64,000 nucleotides of DNA, taken from positions 1,700,501-1,764,500 of the forward strand of contig NZ_CP102288.1 of the NCBI RefSeq assembly GCF_025151535.1. Reading direction: 5' to 3'. Positions 57,256 through 64,000 of this stretch are shown here, piece after piece. This stretch comes from Segatella copri DSM 18205 (lineage in GTDB: Bacteria > Bacteroidota > Bacteroidia > Bacteroidales > Bacteroidaceae). Position numbers and translations under genes: made by a program. The first letter of the stretch is position 1. The number at the start of each line of letters is the position of its first letter. The notes beneath the pieces were generated by a model, which saw nothing but the letters and a program-made list of their open reading frames with translations, was not told the origin of the DNA and searched no databases.

Positions 57256-58290
57256 ATGAAGCATACTAAGTTTTTTATCTTAGCACTCGTAGCTGCGATG
57301 ACGTTCTCTGCCTGCGGTACTGATGATTCGCTGCAGTTCTATTTTCCTGATAAAGATGGTAATACCGGAGGTAGCACAGGAGGTGATAATACTCCTGGAA
57401 TATCTACCAACAAGGCTAACCAAAATATGAACATGCCTACAGCCATTATGCCTGAAGTTGTAAAGAATGCTATCAATGGCCTGGAATTCCCTAAGATTAA
57501 AGGCGGTTCAAGCTATGTGGTTACTCACATGGCAGATAATGCTGTTAACTTCAGTTCTGAATGGGATGACAATATCCAATCACAGCGCTGGACTTGCTAC
57601 TTCTATTGTGAAAGCAACATTAAGAATAACAACATAGGTCGTACTGACAATTTTATCAACGACCCAGACATGGCTAAGTATTACCCTGGTATTACAGAGT
57701 TTGCATCAACTCCATACCAAAATTCTGGTTATGACTGTGGACACCTGATAGCATCTAACGAGCGCCAAGTTTCTGTTGCATCAAACAAACAGACTTTCTA
57801 TTTCACCAATATGCAGCCACAATATTCTACCTTTAATCAGAACAAAGGTATCTGGTATGCTATGGAACAGCAGAACTTAAAGAAAAATATCTCAGGAAGA
57901 GATACTCTTTTCGTAGTGAAGGGTGGCACTATCGAAAACGGAAACGTAATAGAATATGTTAAAAACAGAAGCCATATTAAACCATCGGAGTACGTAAAGC
58001 AACCTCATGATGGATATATCCCTGTGCCAAAGTATTTCTTTGTAGCATTCCTTGAAAAGAAATATAATAAAGAAACTGACAGCTTTAAATACAGCGCTTT
58101 CGGCTATTGGTTCCCTCACGAGAACAAGGCATTTGAAAATGGCGATAAGCTCGGCAACTATGTCGTAAACATCAAGACGCTGGAAGACAAAACCGGCATC
58201 TACTTCTTCTGTAATCTCCCTGATGAAATAGAGAAGAATGTTGAAAACCAAGATGCAGAAGTTCTCAAGAAACTTTGGGGCTTTAAATAA
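57256..58290 (+). CDS. Secreted DNA/RNA non-specific endonuclease (NUC1 family)
   Basis: This 344-residue lipoprotein starts MKHTKFFILALVAAMTFSACG (lipobox FSAC) with a Gly/Thr linker, then a NUC1-type domain from about 80 to 330. GYDCGHLIASNERQ is the active-site motif; the usual DRGH Arg is Cys here, while the catalytic His stays. FTNMQPQYSTFNQNKGIWYAMEQQ contains the metal-binding Asn. Such nucleases degrade extracellular DNA and RNA. Anchoring is in the outer membrane, facing either side. It is monocistronic. Confidence 0.88.
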   Translation: MKHTKFFILALVAAMTFSACGTDDSLQFYFPDKDGNTGGSTGGDNTPGISTNKANQNMNMPTAIMPEVVKNAINGLEFPKIKGGSSYVVTHMADNAVNFSSEWDDNIQSQRWTCYFYCESNIKNNNIGRTDNFINDPDMAKYYPGITEFASTPYQNSGYDCGHLIASNERQVSVASNKQTFYFTNMQPQYSTFNQNKGIWYAMEQQNLKKNISGRDTLFVVKGGTIENGNVIEYVKNRSHIKPSEYVKQPHDGYIPVPKYFFVAFLEKKYNKETDSFKYSAFGYWFPHENKAFENGDKLGNYVVNIKTLEDKTGIYFFCNLPDEIEKNVENQDAEVLKKLWGFK

Positions 58291-58312
58291 ATCAGGCTAT
58301 ATACAAACAAAG

Positions 58313-58346
58313 AATCCGCTCTCTCAAATCAATGAGTGAGCGGATT
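58313..58346. terminator. Bidirectional terminator hairpin
   Basis: AATCCGCTC (58313-58321) pairs with GAGCGGATT (58338-58346), followed by TTTCTTTTG. It separates the nuclease gene from the convergent lipoprotein gene. Confidence 0.75.
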
Positions 58347-58362
58347 TCTTTTGTTTATATCA

Positions 58363-59079
58363 TCATCTTCCCGGCAACTTCTTGATTGCATGTGGCATGA
58401 ATGCCCTGCCGGTAGCCTTACCGAAGCTAGGAGCTACGGAATCGGTTGCAGCAGAACGGGTCTTCTTACGGGCTCCACTCGGATCGTAGCGCACTAAATC
58501 GATTTGCATCACATCACCCTTAGCCTTACCTGTTCCTATCATATAACCATAGAACACATCACGGCCCTTTTCATCACCCAGATAGAAACCATACTGCTTA
58601 GCACCTGCATCCATCACATAGGTAGCACCCGTTTCATTATAACGGATATAAATATCACCATTCTTATCGATGTACCAGGTAAACTTCAGGGTCTGGGATT
58701 CATTGCTTCCATCATCGGCATAATCCACTTCTACACCATTACCACTGAGCGAATTAACCTTATCACCCGCCTGATAGAACGTCATCTCGGCATGGAAACT
58801 GTAGTTATTGCGAGACTGGCCGTCCTCAGCAAGTTCAGAGAGCATCACAGAGCCTCTCCAGTCGCCTGTAAGAGTCTGAGCCTCCGACAGCAGGTAATCA
58901 TTCTGAGAGCCGTTAGAACCATTGTTCCAGTCGCCCTGGTTCCATCCCCAGCCACCATGATTATAGTCATCATACCAGTAATAATCATCATGCCAATAAT
59001 AATCATCATCACATGAGGTAAATGAGAAAGATGCTGCAGCTATCGCCATCCACATCCATATCCGATTAAACTTTTTCAT
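58363..59079 (-). CDS. Asp/Tyr/Trp-rich lipoprotein 1
   Basis: This is a 238-residue lipoprotein. The signal MKKFNRIWMWMAIAAASFSFTSC has lipobox FTSC, followed by a Asp, Tyr and Trp-rich repeat (DDYYWHDDYYWYDDYNHGGWGW). A domain with LTGDWRGSVML, then FTWYIDKNGDIYIRYNETG and YGFYLGDEKGRDVFYGYM has the same layout as the next lipoprotein. The C-terminus is basic (KKTRSAATDSV). Both are probably surface proteins of unknown ligand. It lies 38 bases after lipoprotein 2. Confidence 0.7.
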   Translation of the reverse strand: MKKFNRIWMWMAIAAASFSFTSCDDDYYWHDDYYWYDDYNHGGWGWNQGDWNNGSNGSQNDYLLSEAQTLTGDWRGSVMLSELAEDGQSRNNYSFHAEMTFYQAGDKVNSLSGNGVEVDYADDGSNESQTLKFTWYIDKNGDIYIRYNETGATYVMDAGAKQYGFYLGDEKGRDVFYGYMIGTGKAKGDVMQIDLVRYDPSGARKKTRSAATDSVAPSFGKATGRAFMPHAIKKLPGR

Positions 59080-59117
59080 ATCTTGTTTCCTTTCTTCAAA
59101 CTAAATTCCTTATTGCC

Positions 59118-59714
59118 TTACTTCACTACAAAACGGCGAACAGGCTTCTGATTATCATCTGCTACCTTAACATACTCTACAGAATCCTTAGCTCCGCGAG
59201 AAACAATTTGGGTGTTCTCCAAGCCCGAATGCTGCTTGCTGTAGCCCCAACCGTCATCGTAACCCCAGTCATAATCATCGCGCCAGTTGTAAGAATCGCG
59301 ATACAGCTCGAAATAAGCACGGTTGCCGTTATCAGCCTCTACATATCCAGAGAACTTGCGGTCGCCCAGAGCATAGTCGTAAATCACAACATCACTATTC
59401 TCATCAAGAAGAGTGATATAGATGTTTCTGTTGCGTACTGTCCAGGTAATACGGTTTGCTATATAATTGTTGCCATGCCAGTAATTTCTATCAAAGTAAT
59501 CGATCCAATAGCCTGTACCGGAATAGATGCCATCATTCTGGTCGAATCGGATTACCGAATAGGTAGCATCGACATTGCCATATTGTACATACATATTACC
59601 CCTCCATGTACCATCAAGGGTGTATGCGATATCAGAATCCTCATCACATGAGGTGAGAGAAATACTCATCAAAGCTATGAAAGCCATTGTGAGAAGAGTA
59701 GTAAACTTTTTCAT
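59118..59714 (-). CDS. Asp/Tyr/Trp-rich lipoprotein 2
   Basis: This is a 198-residue lipoprotein starting MKKFTTLLTMAFIALMSISLTSC (lipobox LTSC). The domain begins TLDGTWRGNMYVQYG, has ITWTVRNRNIYITLLDENSDVVIYDYALGDRKFSGYV, the counterpart of the same region in lipoprotein 1, and ends with the aromatic-acidic RDDYDWGYDDGWGY. The low-complexity tract is at the N-terminus in one paralogue and at the C-terminus in the other. Function is unknown. It is the first gene of the pair, with promoter at 59801-59831. Confidence 0.7.
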   Translation of the reverse strand: MKKFTTLLTMAFIALMSISLTSCDEDSDIAYTLDGTWRGNMYVQYGNVDATYSVIRFDQNDGIYSGTGYWIDYFDRNYWHGNNYIANRITWTVRNRNIYITLLDENSDVVIYDYALGDRKFSGYVEADNGNRAYFELYRDSYNWRDDYDWGYDDGWGYSKQHSGLENTQIVSRGAKDSVEYVKVADDNQKPVRRFVVK

Positions 59715-59800
59715 ATCAATTTATCAGTTAAGTTATTTATATTCTTATATCTTCTAATTATTGAGCTCTCGAAGAACAGCATTCTTTCTTGAACTCGATG

Positions 59801-59831
59801 CAAAGGTAGTGGATTTTTCGTCTGCATCAAA
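59801..59831 (-). promoter_or_regulatory. Promoter of the lipoprotein pair
   Basis: Minus strand: TTTG (59831-59828), 19-base spacer, TACCTTTG (59808-59801). The lipoprotein 2 ATG is about 87 bases downstream. Confidence 0.75.
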
Positions 59832-60082
59832 GGGGAAAAGGATACAAACTGAGGGGGAAATCCCTATTCTTTCAAAAACATGAAGAAAATTCAGAAATAA
59901 CCAGTAGCGAAACAACAAACGCTAAACAAAAGAAAAACAGGGAGATAACAACCAAATATTACCCCTATAACATGAAAAGTGGAATAATTTAATGCAATAA
60001 CATAAAAAAATACACCTAAAACTACGATATCTCATTTATTTTCACTACCTTTGTTGCGATTAATAAACGTATACGAATAAAA
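59832..60082. other. Spacer with the -7 element of the hybrid regulator
   Basis: TACCTTTG (60046-60053, plus strand) is 29 bases upstream of the ATG at 60083. A -33 TTTG is not in place. Otherwise A-rich, no gene. Confidence 0.5.
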
Positions 60083-63000
60083 ATGATGAAAAGAAAATTA
60101 TATATCACCCTATTAGGACTGCTCTCTACCATTATGACAGCAGCTGTACCCTACTGCGATGTGAGAAAATTCTCTATCACAGACGGACTCGCTGCCAATA
60201 CCATCTCAGACCTCAAACAAGGTAAAGACAACCTCATGTGGTTCAGTACATGGAACGGACTGTCGTTCTATGACGGCTACAAGTTTCATACTTTCAGAGA
60301 CAACCCCGATGATATTGACGTCCTGTCAACCAACCGTATACTGAAAATAGAACCATCCTATAACAACAACGTGTGGTGTATCACATACGACCACCAGCTC
60401 TACGTATACGATACCCACTTCTGCCAGTTCTTTGCTGTTGGACAGAAATTCAACGAACTGTTCAACATCGACCTGCGCGTAAGCCAGGTATACTCTATGA
60501 AAAACGGAGCTACATGGTTTACTTCAGAAGATGGAAAATACATCATCCGATCAACAGGAAAAACCTTTGATGAGCGGAACATAGAACTCATCAAAGTAGG
60601 AGAAAAGGGACTCAGAAGCGGAAATGTATGGTACATCCATCAAGATATACACGGAAGAGAATGGGTGCTTACCGACAAAGGCGCATACATATATCATTCG
60701 AAAATTCCAAGCAAACTGCCTTTCAAATGGCTCAGAGGGGTGGGAGAAGATGAGTTCCTGGCAACTGAAGACGGTAAACTGGCAAAATATGACCTGCAGA
60801 ACCGACTCACCATGATACCAATGCCAGAAGGCGTAACCCGTATCAACCAACTGAAAAATACAGGTTACCAACTCCTGCTGGCAACCAACCTGGGTGTGGT
60901 CATCTACAACCCGCGCACCTTCAAGTTTGATATCATCAACGTACAGAGCCCGAGTCAGCCTTTGGCAGAGGTAAAGAAGATTTATACCGATGATTTCGGT
61001 ATGGTATGGGCATTCACTGACGGCATGGGAGTAACCCTCGTCAATCCGAAGACCGGAGAGAAACAGTGGCTCTTTGCCGACCAGGACGACCCGATGGACC
61101 GTACAACCTGCGAAAGCAATTTCATCACACAAGATGAACACAAGACCCTCTGGGTTGTGCCTAGAGGAGGAACCTTCAGTTATTTTGACCGCAAGGCAGG
61201 CAAACTGGTGCCTTATCTGCTGAGAAGCAATTCATCGGGCAACTACCGCATACAGAAGATTACGAAATATGTACTCTCAGACCAGGGAATCCTCTGGCTG
61301 ACAGGCTCTCACGACCTGACACAGGTAGTCTTCAAATATCACCCTTATATTATCAACAAGCTGGATGTGGGCGAAGACGAAGTGTTCTCGGTGAATGCAT
61401 CGCCAGACGGACATATCTGGGCTGGTTATTACAATGGTATAATCCAGGTGCTCAACGCATCCTACCAAAGCATCGGATACCTGTCGCCAAGCGGACAGAT
61501 TGTGCCACAGCAAGTAAACTTCGACGAGAAGGGCATCATGTCTATCCACTTCGATATCAAGGGAAGAGCATGGATAGGAACCAACGGAAATGGTGTCTAT
61601 CTGATAGATAAAATGCAGGTAAGACACTTTGTTTATGATGCCAACAACCCGTCATCGCTGCCGTTCGACAAGATACAAGACATTGTAGCCGACCGCACCG
61701 GACGCATCTGGATAGGTACCTACGGAGGTGGGCTGGCACTTGTTAACGAGGCGGCAGACGGCAGTATCAGCTTCATCAGTAAACGAAACGGACTGCCTTG
61801 GGAGAAACAGCACTACGACCGCATACGCCGCATCTGCTGCACCACTACGGGAACCATTCTTGTAGGAACTACAGATGGTCTCATCACCTTCAGTGATGCC
61901 TTTACAAACGCAAGAAAGATCAATTACCACAAGACCTACTACATACCGAACGATACAACTAGTCTGGCTGCAAACGATATGAACAATATCATGGAGCACA
62001 CCAGCGGCAAGATGTATATCTCGCAACAGGGCGGTGTGATGGAAGAGATTGTGAGCAAATCGCTCCTGCAAGACAACCTGAAGATGAAATACTTCCATGC
62101 CATCGATGTTAACGAAGGCATCGTACAGGGCATGGTAGAAGACAACCAGGGAAGAATCTGGGTAATCAGAGAATCGAGTATCGACTGCGTAAACCCGAAA
62201 ACGGGCCAGTGCAACGTGTTCGGACCTAACGATTTCGACTTCAACATGTCGTTCTCGCAAAGCCGTCCTTACTACGATCCGGCAAGCAACAACATCTCGG
62301 TAGGTACCCCGATGGGACTGATTACCTTCAATCCGGCTACGCTGAAGAAGAGCAACTACCAGCCTAAAGTCATCTTCTGTTCCCTCCACTATAGCGGAGA
62401 GAAGGAGTCGGAACCTATCCTGCACAAGGAAAAAGTGGTGATTCCTGCCAACAAGCGAAATCTGACCATCACCTTCGCATCACTCGACTATCAGCGCAAG
62501 TATCAGACCAAATACCTCTATCGCATAGATGGTTATACAGCTCCAGGCGAGTGGATATCGAACGGAAGCAGCAATGTCATCGGCTTCAACCGTATCAGTC
62601 ATGGCGATTACGTACTCAAGGTGAGAGCCACCAACTCTCAAGGTGTATGGAGCAAGTATGTGGCAGAACTGCCTATCGAAGTGCGCCCTACCTTCTGGGA
62701 AAGCATCTGGTGCAAATTTCTGATGCTGCTTCTGCTCTTCGGTATCGTAGGCGCAATCTTCTATACCTACAACCAGCGCCAGCGCGAGAACGTAACCCAC
62801 GAGATGAGCGTGATGAAGAACGAGTTCTACAACGATGCAGCCAACCGTCTGAGAACCCCTCTAACGCTCATCGGAGCTCCGGTAAAAACCGTTTTGGATA
62901 CCGAACCGGGTATCACCCGAAAGGGCAAGGAACTGCTGAGAATGGTAGTAGACAATGCCAACGAAATGCTGGTAATGCTGGACAAGGTTCAGAGATACGG

Positions 63001-64000
63001 CAACACGGCAGGCTTCCATACGAACAGTGGTCTGACCGAGGAAGATTACGACCTGGCAGAAAGAGAAAAAGCGAATGGCCAGATTGACGACCGCAATGCA
63101 TCTGACTATCTGGAAGAAGTAAATAAACAGAAAGAAGAAAAGGATGCAGAGGCTGAACGCCTGGAAGAAATGGGCAAGGAACAGGAAACTGCACAGGAAG
63201 AAGCGGAACAAAAAGACCAGACGGTACTGGTAGTAGAAGACAATGCCGACCTGCGCAAGTTCCTCTACAGCATCCTCTCGCCTACCTACAACGTGCTGCT
63301 TGCAGAAAACGGAAAGACTGGCTTGGTGATGGCGCGCAAGGAAACGCCCGACTTTATCCTTACAGACGTTACCATGCCTGTGATGGATGGTTTGTCGATG
63401 ATTCACGAGATTAAGCAGGATACCACCCTCAACAACATCCCAGTGATGATTCTCTCGGCCAAGGCAAGCGTAGAAGACCAGCAGCGAGGCTTTGATGAAG
63501 GTGTTGATGCCTATATCACCAAGCCATTCTCTACCCCTTATCTGCTCGGCCGAATAGAGGCTATCCTCACCCAGCGCCGCAACATTCAGATGGATGTCAT
63601 CAGAAAGCTGAAGGAAACTGGCGATAAAGATGCCATAGCAGCCCTGCGAATACTGCCTGCAGCAGCTCCTCAGCCTGCTCTTAACCAGGCTGAAACTAGT
63701 GCCGAGAATGAAGCGGTTGACCCAAACAGCGAGTTGGCATTTATGGCGGCACAGATTCAAGACAGAACCATGTTGCGTGTCTTCAGGTTTGTTGTTGAAA
63801 ATGCAGGCAACCCGGAGCTCAAGATTGATGACATCTCGAACGAAATCGGTATGAGCCGAAGCGTACTATATAATAAGGTGAAAGCAACGACCGGAATGAC
63901 ACCGGTAGACTTCGTTCGCCATATACGTATCAAGAAGGCATGCGAGATATTGCGCAATACAGACGATACACTGACCAGTATCGCCTTCGCAGTAGGTTTT
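60083..64000 (+). CDS. Hybrid two-component regulator lacking histidine kinase core (3' truncated by window)
   Basis: The frame is open from ATG 60083 (tandem ATG codons) to the window end, 1306 codons, with no stop. The signal is MKRKLYITLLGLLSTIMTAA. Periplasmic beta-propeller repeats follow (FSITDGLAANTISDLKQG, WIGTYGGGLALV), then a Y_Y_Y domain at about 780-870 and a membrane helix at about 876-896 (KFLMLLLLFGIVGAIFY). The dimerisation helix has FYNDAANRLRTPLTLI, where the usual H-E of HELRTPL is N-R (Asn921). No ATPase domain follows; a coiled, Glu-rich linker (about 985-1045) leads straight to a receiver domain (VLVVEDNADLRKFL, Asp1095 in ILTDVTMPVMDG, ITKPF). An AraC-type HTH starts near 1250 and is cut off. 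Bacteroidota relatives sense glycan pieces and activate polysaccharide-use genes. Here the kinase function must come from elsewhere or be lost. Confidence 0.9.
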   Translation, partial: MMKRKLYITLLGLLSTIMTAAVPYCDVRKFSITDGLAANTISDLKQGKDNLMWFSTWNGLSFYDGYKFHTFRDNPDDIDVLSTNRILKIEPSYNNNVWCITYDHQLYVYDTHFCQFFAVGQKFNELFNIDLRVSQVYSMKNGATWFTSEDGKYIIRSTGKTFDERNIELIKVGEKGLRSGNVWYIHQDIHGREWVLTDKGAYIYHSKIPSKLPFKWLRGVGEDEFLATEDGKLAKYDLQNRLTMIPMPEGVTRINQLKNTGYQLLLATNLGVVIYNPRTFKFDIINVQSPSQPLAEVKKIYTDDFGMVWAFTDGMGVTLVNPKTGEKQWLFADQDDPMDRTTCESNFITQDEHKTLWVVPRGGTFSYFDRKAGKLVPYLLRSNSSGNYRIQKITKYVLSDQGILWLTGSHDLTQVVFKYHPYIINKLDVGEDEVFSVNASPDGHIWAGYYNGIIQVLNASYQSIGYLSPSGQIVPQQVNFDEKGIMSIHFDIKGRAWIGTNGNGVYLIDKMQVRHFVYDANNPSSLPFDKIQDIVADRTGRIWIGTYGGGLALVNEAADGSISFISKRNGLPWEKQHYDRIRRICCTTTGTILVGTTDGLITFSDAFTNARKINYHKTYYIPNDTTSLAANDMNNIMEHTSGKMYISQQGGVMEEIVSKSLLQDNLKMKYFHAIDVNEGIVQGMVEDNQGRIWVIRESSIDCVNPKTGQCNVFGPNDFDFNMSFSQSRPYYDPASNNISVGTPMGLITFNPATLKKSNYQPKVIFCSLHYSGEKESEPILHKEKVVIPANKRNLTITFASLDYQRKYQTKYLYRIDGYTAPGEWISNGSSNVIGFNRISHGDYVLKVRATNSQGVWSKYVAELPIEVRPTFWESIWCKFLMLLLLFGIVGAIFYTYNQRQRENVTHEMSVMKNEFYNDAANRLRTPLTLIGAPVKTVLDTEPGITRKGKELLRMVVDNANEMLVMLDKVQRYGNTAGFHTNSGLTEEDYDLAEREKANGQIDDRNASDYLEEVNKQKEEKDAEAERLEEMGKEQETAQEEAEQKDQTVLVVEDNADLRKFLYSILSPTYNVLLAENGKTGLVMARKETPDFILTDVTMPVMDGLSMIHEIKQDTTLNNIPVMILSAKASVEDQQRGFDEGVDAYITKPFSTPYLLGRIEAILTQRRNIQMDVIRKLKETGDKDAIAALRILPAAAPQPALNQAETSAENEAVDPNSELAFMAAQIQDRTMLRVFRFVVENAGNPELKIDDISNEIGMSRSVLYNKVKATTGMTPVDFVRHIRIKKACEILRNTDDTLTSIAFAVGF

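Follow-up and report, generated by a model that had tools for sequence, protein, structure and literature searches.

What purpose could a receiver and a phospho-acceptor histidine serve in a regulator that has no kinase? This testable question is raised by a large class of proteins related to the hybrid two-component systems (HTCSs), a major glycan-sensor class of gut Bacteroidota that is described as phosphorylating within one chain. We approached it through one gene in a 64,000-nucleotide stretch of Segatella copri DSM 18205 (the window; assembly GCF_025151535.1, contig NZ_CP102288.1, C1:1700501-1764500 of a 3.33 Mb, one-contig genome), which an earlier reading made from the letters alone (the sequence-only reading) had described as a ligand sensor fused to a receiver and an AraC domain without an ATPase domain. 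The gene starts at 60083 on the forward strand, leaves the window at 64000 (residues 1-1306 of 1333) and ends in the adjoining DNA with a stop at genome position C1:1764584 (L009:6085), 84 bases beyond the window; the complete protein has 1,333 amino acids. Judging by its relatives, the kinase-less architecture looks like a real, recurring rebuild of the switch and not a broken gene. For the window protein itself we favour, at about even confidence, a functional transmembrane regulator of transcription that descends from a BT4124-like HTCS through an ancestral loss of the ATPase domain and in which the ligand would reach DNA directly without a need for phosphate.

All of the parts named by the sequence-only reading (i.e., a continuous frame with propeller, Y_Y_Y, transmembrane segment, dimerisation-like helices, receiver and AraC domain) were recovered in the complete gene by Pfam, the membrane helix by eye. 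The periplasmic propeller sensor, made of Reg_prop repeats with Y_Y_Y (residues 803-867) at its end, is encoded at 60149..62683 and is followed by a hydrophobic membrane helix (residues ~879-896, 62717..62770), HisKA-like dimerisation and histidine phosphotransfer (DHp) helices with the H-box ANRLRTPL (residues 908-970, 62804..62992), a charged linker where HATPase_c would stand (62993..63223), the receiver (residues 1048-1158, 63224..63556) and an AraC-type DNA-binding domain that runs from 63755..64000 past the window to residue 1333, all on the forward strand. In the part of the protein that lies in the window, Pfam matched Reg_prop, Y_Y_Y, Response_reg (E 7e-23) and HTH_18, and the HisKA match was below the cut-off (911-969, E 0.055). 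The Pfam scan found no HATPase_c in the protein, and none of the 19 HATPase_c matches in its genome fell in the gene, the nearest lying roughly 95 and 135 kb off; the same genome search showed no kinase gene beside the regulator and no ATPase domain in a neighbouring gene. The linker measured ~73 residues from the end of the HisKA helix (~975) to the receiver (1048), shorter than the roughly 85 first estimated. At the phospho-acceptor position stands Asn921 (codon aac, 62843-62845, forward strand), as the earlier report of an NRLRTPL box without His had it, with Arg922 at the kinase-only acidic position and Thr925 kept. We infer that the regulator cannot phosphorylate itself. The receiver's phosphorylation site, Asp1095 (63365..63367), is intact as claimed, together with E1052, D1053, S1125 and K1147. 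A pseudo-receiver identity was ruled out, all of the receiver catalytic residues being kept.

Decay of the gene or an assembly artefact could also leave a protein without its ATPase domain, and such an account would be helped by the changed His, by the changed lock between receiver and DNA-binding domain (see below) and by a poorly kept linker, 42% identical to that of S. copri iA622 (L238). Comparison with relatives makes this account hardly credible. A C-terminal-part search of 60 relatives returned homologues with the same gap between DHp and receiver, with either a propeller or a periplasmic-binding-protein (PBP) sensor; Pfam on seven of these found six regulators, in which HisKA, receiver and HTH_18 were always present and HATPase_c always absent (0/6), the seventh being a pectinesterase. 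A profile covering DHp helices, linker and receiver (A1) gave, in a search of 398 genomes from the genus, at least 150 matches down to E 7.7e-78 in 127 genomes, covering nearly the whole profile, 41 in frames >1,000 amino acids and 109 in shorter frames, the window's own included. Order-wide, four of 393 genomes held a match at E <=1e-62, among them that of the window and a second genome from its genus; the genus and order searches scored at most seven candidates per genome, and absence from a genome is weak evidence. A receiver-like match at G024:C1:288998-289408 fell within an open frame given as 5,959 amino acids long. An earlier full-length protein scan of genome contigs gave five pattern matches and no relatives.

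The best 80 loci kept from the named collection, found with alignment A2, comprised 64 kinase-less and 16 full proteins. By record title the former belong to Segatella, Xylanibacter, Hallella, Marseilla, Muribaculaceae and others, and all but one of the latter to Bacteroides or Mediterranea; the named and other locus sets overlap (e.g., L177 is the same contig as G027:C46). Pfam was run on the window's protein and 35 of the 64 named kinase-less ones, all complete and of the propeller type; of these 36, none had HATPase_c, 35 had HisKA and 36 had Reg_prop, and the full named proteins, scanned as a control, had HATPase_c in 16/16. The PBP scan, which covered 29 of 33 PBP rows, found HATPase_c in 0/29 and both HisKA and Peripla_BP_4 in 29/29; the kind of sensor had first been set by locus and was later borne out by Pfam. 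With the ATPase domain missing from 64 of these 80 best-matching loci as well, the gap is not an artefact. The collapsed deletion or single-strain artefact that the sequence-only reading had considered does not fit an architecture that recurs across many independent assemblies, and its view that an open frame is not simple decay held up. The receiver had a dN of 0.18 against a dS of 2.3, near saturation, in comparison with L238; dS was saturated in most comparisons (NG86 -1, YN00 nan), and a ratio could be had for few segments. Blanket annotation of such proteins as kinases would mislabel genes in many genomes of the genus.

Where the class came from was read from trees. In a receiver-plus-HTH tree of 91 rows, 37 propeller kinase-less proteins formed one clade (100/99), and 32 PBP kinase-less proteins stood apart, joined in one clade (97/97) by four full proteins, which have PBP sensors and HATPase_c by Pfam. 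A single origin of all kinase-less proteins was rejected by the approximately unbiased (AU) test (p-AU 0.0015, 69 rows vs 22); its grouping follows architecture, but the test itself was picked after the tree was seen and is weakened by long branches among the full proteins. These trees indicate that the ATPase domain was lost at least twice, separately in the propeller and PBP groups. When the 16 full named proteins were included, they and 19 propeller kinase-less rows made one clade (100/98), the immediate sister of the propeller kinase-less rows being the full protein L249 (99/93). One full protein, L252 from B. faecis, has CH at 1262-1263 counted from the first Met, as in BT4124 numbering, and differs very little from PDB 12aw_A; because of the Cys1262 numbering and this near-identity, we infer that L252 and 12aw, and the full group, are BT4124-type. 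By this phylogeny the propeller kinase-less clade stems from full BT4124-like HTCSs. Three kinase-less propeller genes (L061, L154 and L162) stand beside GH3, GH28 and pectinesterase genes, neighbours in keeping with a pectin-related ancestor.

Reduction appears to have gone further in some relatives. Fourteen propeller-membrane-AraC sensor relatives (L137-L150), picked for short frames, had no HisKA, receiver or HATPase_c match in Pfam and are, by their domain content, natural one-component versions. The receiver-less label took five changes on a quick sensor tree (54 rows, SH-aLRT only), on which three of the 14 formed a group beside, not inside, the kinase-less rows. Of the 60 sensor matches on which this group draws, G251:C70 and G295:C103 were among those left aside, and G152:C144 (920 amino acids) gave no match to the domain models used. 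The window's genome also holds L017, a 997-amino-acid frame with propeller and HTH but without a receiver match.

If the ATPase domain is gone, which residues went with it? The homologue sets were gathered by likeness to kinase-less proteins, and the full proteins in the following counts are a convenience sample. Unique DHp sequences of the propeller kinase-less proteins (n=62) kept His in 61, the acidic residue at +1 in none and Thr at +4 in all 62; for the PBP kinase-less proteins (n=29) the figures were 28, 10 and 29, the +1 state making five changes on the tree. BT4124-like full proteins had all three residues in 14/14, and the other full proteins (n=22) had them in 22, 20 and 22. According to Willett and Kirby, the acidic residue beside His is needed for kinase and not phosphatase activity, Thr/Asn serves the phosphatase only, and His is helpful, not essential, for the phosphatase (PMC3510030; here and below, PMC papers are cited from excerpts). 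Because the acid is gone from 62/62 propeller DHps and Thr and nearly all His are kept, the residue lost after ATPase loss would be one that only a kinase needs. In effect, by dropping a kinase-only residue and keeping the phosphatase residues, evolution has performed an unplanned experiment on HisKA chemistry. A kinase-less contig-end fragment, L033/L062 (G014:C89), has Gln at the His position (SQELRTPL), a second His loss; its sensor lies outside the contig, and it was placed with PBP-type proteins on the tree.

This pattern would best fit a brake with phosphatase activity only, in which phosphate reaches the receiver from an outside source (acetyl phosphate or other hybrid kinases) and the sensor-gated DHp helices do nothing except remove it: the ATPase domain and the kinase-only acid are lost, and His, Thr(+4) and the receiver site are kept. 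Acetate kinase is present in the genome, which makes acetyl phosphate a possible donor. The DHp of EnvZ alone is reportedly a phosphatase, to go by the title of a report, and we counted this in favour of a brake. Mutants of CrdS part the two activities, E372A having no kinase and keeping phosphatase, N375A losing phosphatase and not kinase, and H371A retaining much phosphatase (PMC3510030). Taken over the whole class, the brake accounts for more of the conserved residues than phosphate-free control does. However, the RTPL block varies hardly at all in any group, full proteins included, which makes conservation of the Thr unspecific; the acid is still there in 10/29 PBP members; the ATP-binding domain stimulates the phosphatase in EnvZ and HK853 (PMC7005713); and the window protein itself lacks both His and lock. 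We regard the brake as a serious possibility, though not as the outcome we would expect. A broader picture, put forward tentatively from these alignments and trees, is that kinase-less hybrid regulators form a widespread Prevotella-like class in which a self-phosphorylating sensor became a sensor-gated phosphatase that reads an outside ligand and metabolic phosphate (e.g., acetyl phosphate) in combination. The series would run from full HTCS through ATPase-less to receiver-less one-component proteins, with the window protein a late step in which His and lock went too.

Two changes set the window protein apart. The His-to-Asn change was unique to it among the 62 propeller kinase-less DHps; of the deletion and the Asn that the sequence-only reading proposed to look for in homologues, the deletion proved clade-wide and the Asn was found in none of the other 61. 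In addition, the receiver-DNA-binding-domain lock, S/CHIP, is replaced by NNIP (residues 1117-1120, 63431..63442, forward strand), and D1227 and K1265 of the accompanying DK motif were seen by eye, the Asp column shifting in the alignment. The lock reads KNIP in L238 and SHIP in L239 (S. copri Indica), both of which keep the His. Gao et al. (2024) found S/CHIP-DK highly conserved in most, not all, HTCSs, and changing CH to AG or AD in the BT4124 lock gave DNA binding without phosphorylation (PMC11253607). The window lock (NN) and the L238 lock (KN) are not the substitutions made in BT4124. Since His has become Asn and the S/CH lock has become NN, the window protein probably binds DNA without needing phosphate. 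In the favoured phosphate-independent mechanism, a periplasmic ligand would act through membrane helix and DHp helices to rearrange the dimer, which would then free or reposition its two AraC domains on a candidate site upstream of divergent lipoprotein-like genes. Phosphate on Asp1095, if any, would come from outside the protein.

Such an outside source could be one of the cell's complete hybrid proteins, either dimerising with the regulator or passing phosphate to its receiver. The receiver is intact, six proteins of the genome combine matches to DHp, HATPase_c and receiver within a single long frame, and specificity between histidine kinase and receiver in HTCSs is described as promiscuous (PMC11253607). 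On the other hand, no kinase gene adjoins the regulator, with the nearest HATPase_c ~95 kb off, Asn921 cannot take phosphate as His does, and the acid required by a kinase is absent from 62/62 propeller DHps. Phosphorylation in trans is thus unlikely in our view.

The candidate site lies between the regulator and a small lipoprotein-like gene (lipobox by eye; 59118..59714, reverse strand), which is divergent from the regulator and its likely target from open frames and orthologue comparison; the same comparison marks a second small lipoprotein-like gene (58363..59079, reverse strand) as a conserved neighbour. The candidate operator, AGGGGGAAATCCCTAT at 59852..59867, is conserved in four orthologous regions. 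A promoter-like TAnnTTTG (TGCAAAGGTA on the forward strand; 59799..59808, reverse strand) of the divergent gene, which we take to be the Bacteroidetes -7 motif, is 53 bp from the site, and the spacing is 52-53 bp in the window, L239, L238 and L226. The consensus was taken from the 16-bp site AGGGGAAAATCCCTAT of L239, where it lies between lipoprotein-like gene and regulator, and only matches in the other regions, which are homologous DNA, are independent of it: the window has one mismatch, L238 two and L226 two, with 0/500 shuffles as good in each, and L232 has five (38/500 shuffles as good). A second copy at 59831..59846 differs in 7/16 letters in the window and in 4-7/16 across four regions, in each of which no period from 17 to 26 bp fitted better than 21 bp. 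HTCS sites described elsewhere take the form of direct repeats; 16-bp sites with a 5-bp spacer are one example (PMC3878776), with the same 21-bp period as here. The string GGRAAATCCCTAT occurs twice in the whole genome, and its other exact copy (G000:C1:1985331-1985343) is a possible second target.

The regulated glycan locus that had been expected just past 64000 was not there. Downstream of the regulator lies instead a glutathione-peroxidase gene (Pfam), followed by what we take from their sequences to be tryptophan-synthase-beta-like and mfd-like genes. All six orthologous stretches (the window, L238, L239, L226, L232 and L230) carry the peroxidase and mfd-like genes along with one or two small lipoprotein-like genes in divergent orientation; an endonuclease gene is present in 5/6 and the tryptophan-synthase-beta-like gene in 5/6. 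The gene adjoining the regulator is the 59118-59714 homologue in the window, L226, L232 and L230 (with a small frame between in the last), and the 58363-59079 homologue in L238 and L239. Against L238/L239, the stretch 57256-59714 plus 60083-64000 has diverged (regulator 61-62%, lipoprotein-like and endonuclease genes 52-64% identity), and its flanks are far less diverged (peroxidase 97-99%, TrpB-like 90-92%, mfd-like 81-86%), as if sensor and targets changed together.

Several observations weigh against phosphate-free control. The receiver active site is intact in 70/70 distinct kinase-less rows, and the receiver is the window protein's best-kept domain in comparison with L238 (74% identity, against 63% for the sensor, 62% for membrane helix plus DHp, 42% and 50% for the first and second linkers and 65% for the HTH); a phosphate-free protein would not need an intact, well-kept receiver. 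His is kept in nearly all other kinase-less members, and loss of the lock cannot explain the class because 34/37 propeller kinase-less rows keep S/CHIP. AlphaFold gave pTM 0.54 for the window protein and for an S. copri control, each with receiver and AraC domain confident on their own and their mutual placement at low confidence; Foldseek searches with both models matched mostly receivers, and 12aw was not among the best 50 for either. As for the operator, L230 is without the site (461/500 shuffles as good), and the second copy is weak and changes sides: in the window and L239 it falls towards the lipoprotein-like gene, in L238 and L226 towards the regulator.

The suggestion that the protein is a dominant-negative partner of a paralogue found no support, and we consider it very improbable. 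Dimerisation helices and DNA-binding domain are kept, as such a partner would require, but the regulator has its own conserved locus and site and its own sensor group, and a genome search at E 1e-10 showed no second ATPase-less DHp-receiver protein. Overall, the sequence-only reading was partly borne out: it was right about the absent ATPase domain, the replaced His, the intact receiver and the case against simple decay, the glycan locus it looked to beyond 64000 was not there, and of its three mechanisms the dominant-negative one found no support.

How, then, does the protein compare with known systems? Bacteroides HTCS proteins are described with a histidine kinase domain throughout, BT4124 being listed under rhamnogalacturonans, in the excerpts of PMC3878776. 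ATPase-less HTCSs were not found in a literature search of titles and abstract openings, with subscription journals thinly covered, nor are they described where a Segatella copri transcriptome paper mentions HTCSs (PMC11784079). The window protein resembles the BT4124-lineage HTCSs of Bacteroides in its sensor propeller, Y_Y_Y, DHp helices, LSAKAS-type receiver and AraC domain, and its receiver-AraC part is similar to PDB 12aw_A. Of the features of an HTCS it has the propeller with Y_Y_Y, the receiver with intact active site and the C-terminal AraC-type HTH. Unlike that lineage it has no ATPase domain, no acidic +1 and no phospho-acceptor His (its HisKA helices are there, below the cut-off and with Asn), no S/CHIP-DK interface, NNIP standing for S/CHIP, and no adjoining glycan locus.

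Hybrid transmembrane transcription regulators, i.e., membrane-bound DNA-binding proteins with two-component core domains, are a wider frame: the window protein has the membrane segment (by eye), the DNA-binding domain and at least one such core domain. A survey of these regulators counts proteins with at least one core domain, and its excerpts do not describe an ATPase-less class (PMC10269533). The window protein is within this broad set, but two of the features by which an HTCS is defined are missing from it. It shares sensor group and AraC domain with the propeller-AraC regulators L137-L150, which, unlike it, also lack HisKA and receiver. In His site and lock it is like BT4236 of B. thetaiotaomicron, which has Gln848 at the His position and a CSIP-EK lock, and for which Gao et al. 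suggested a phosphorylation-independent mechanism (PMC11253607).

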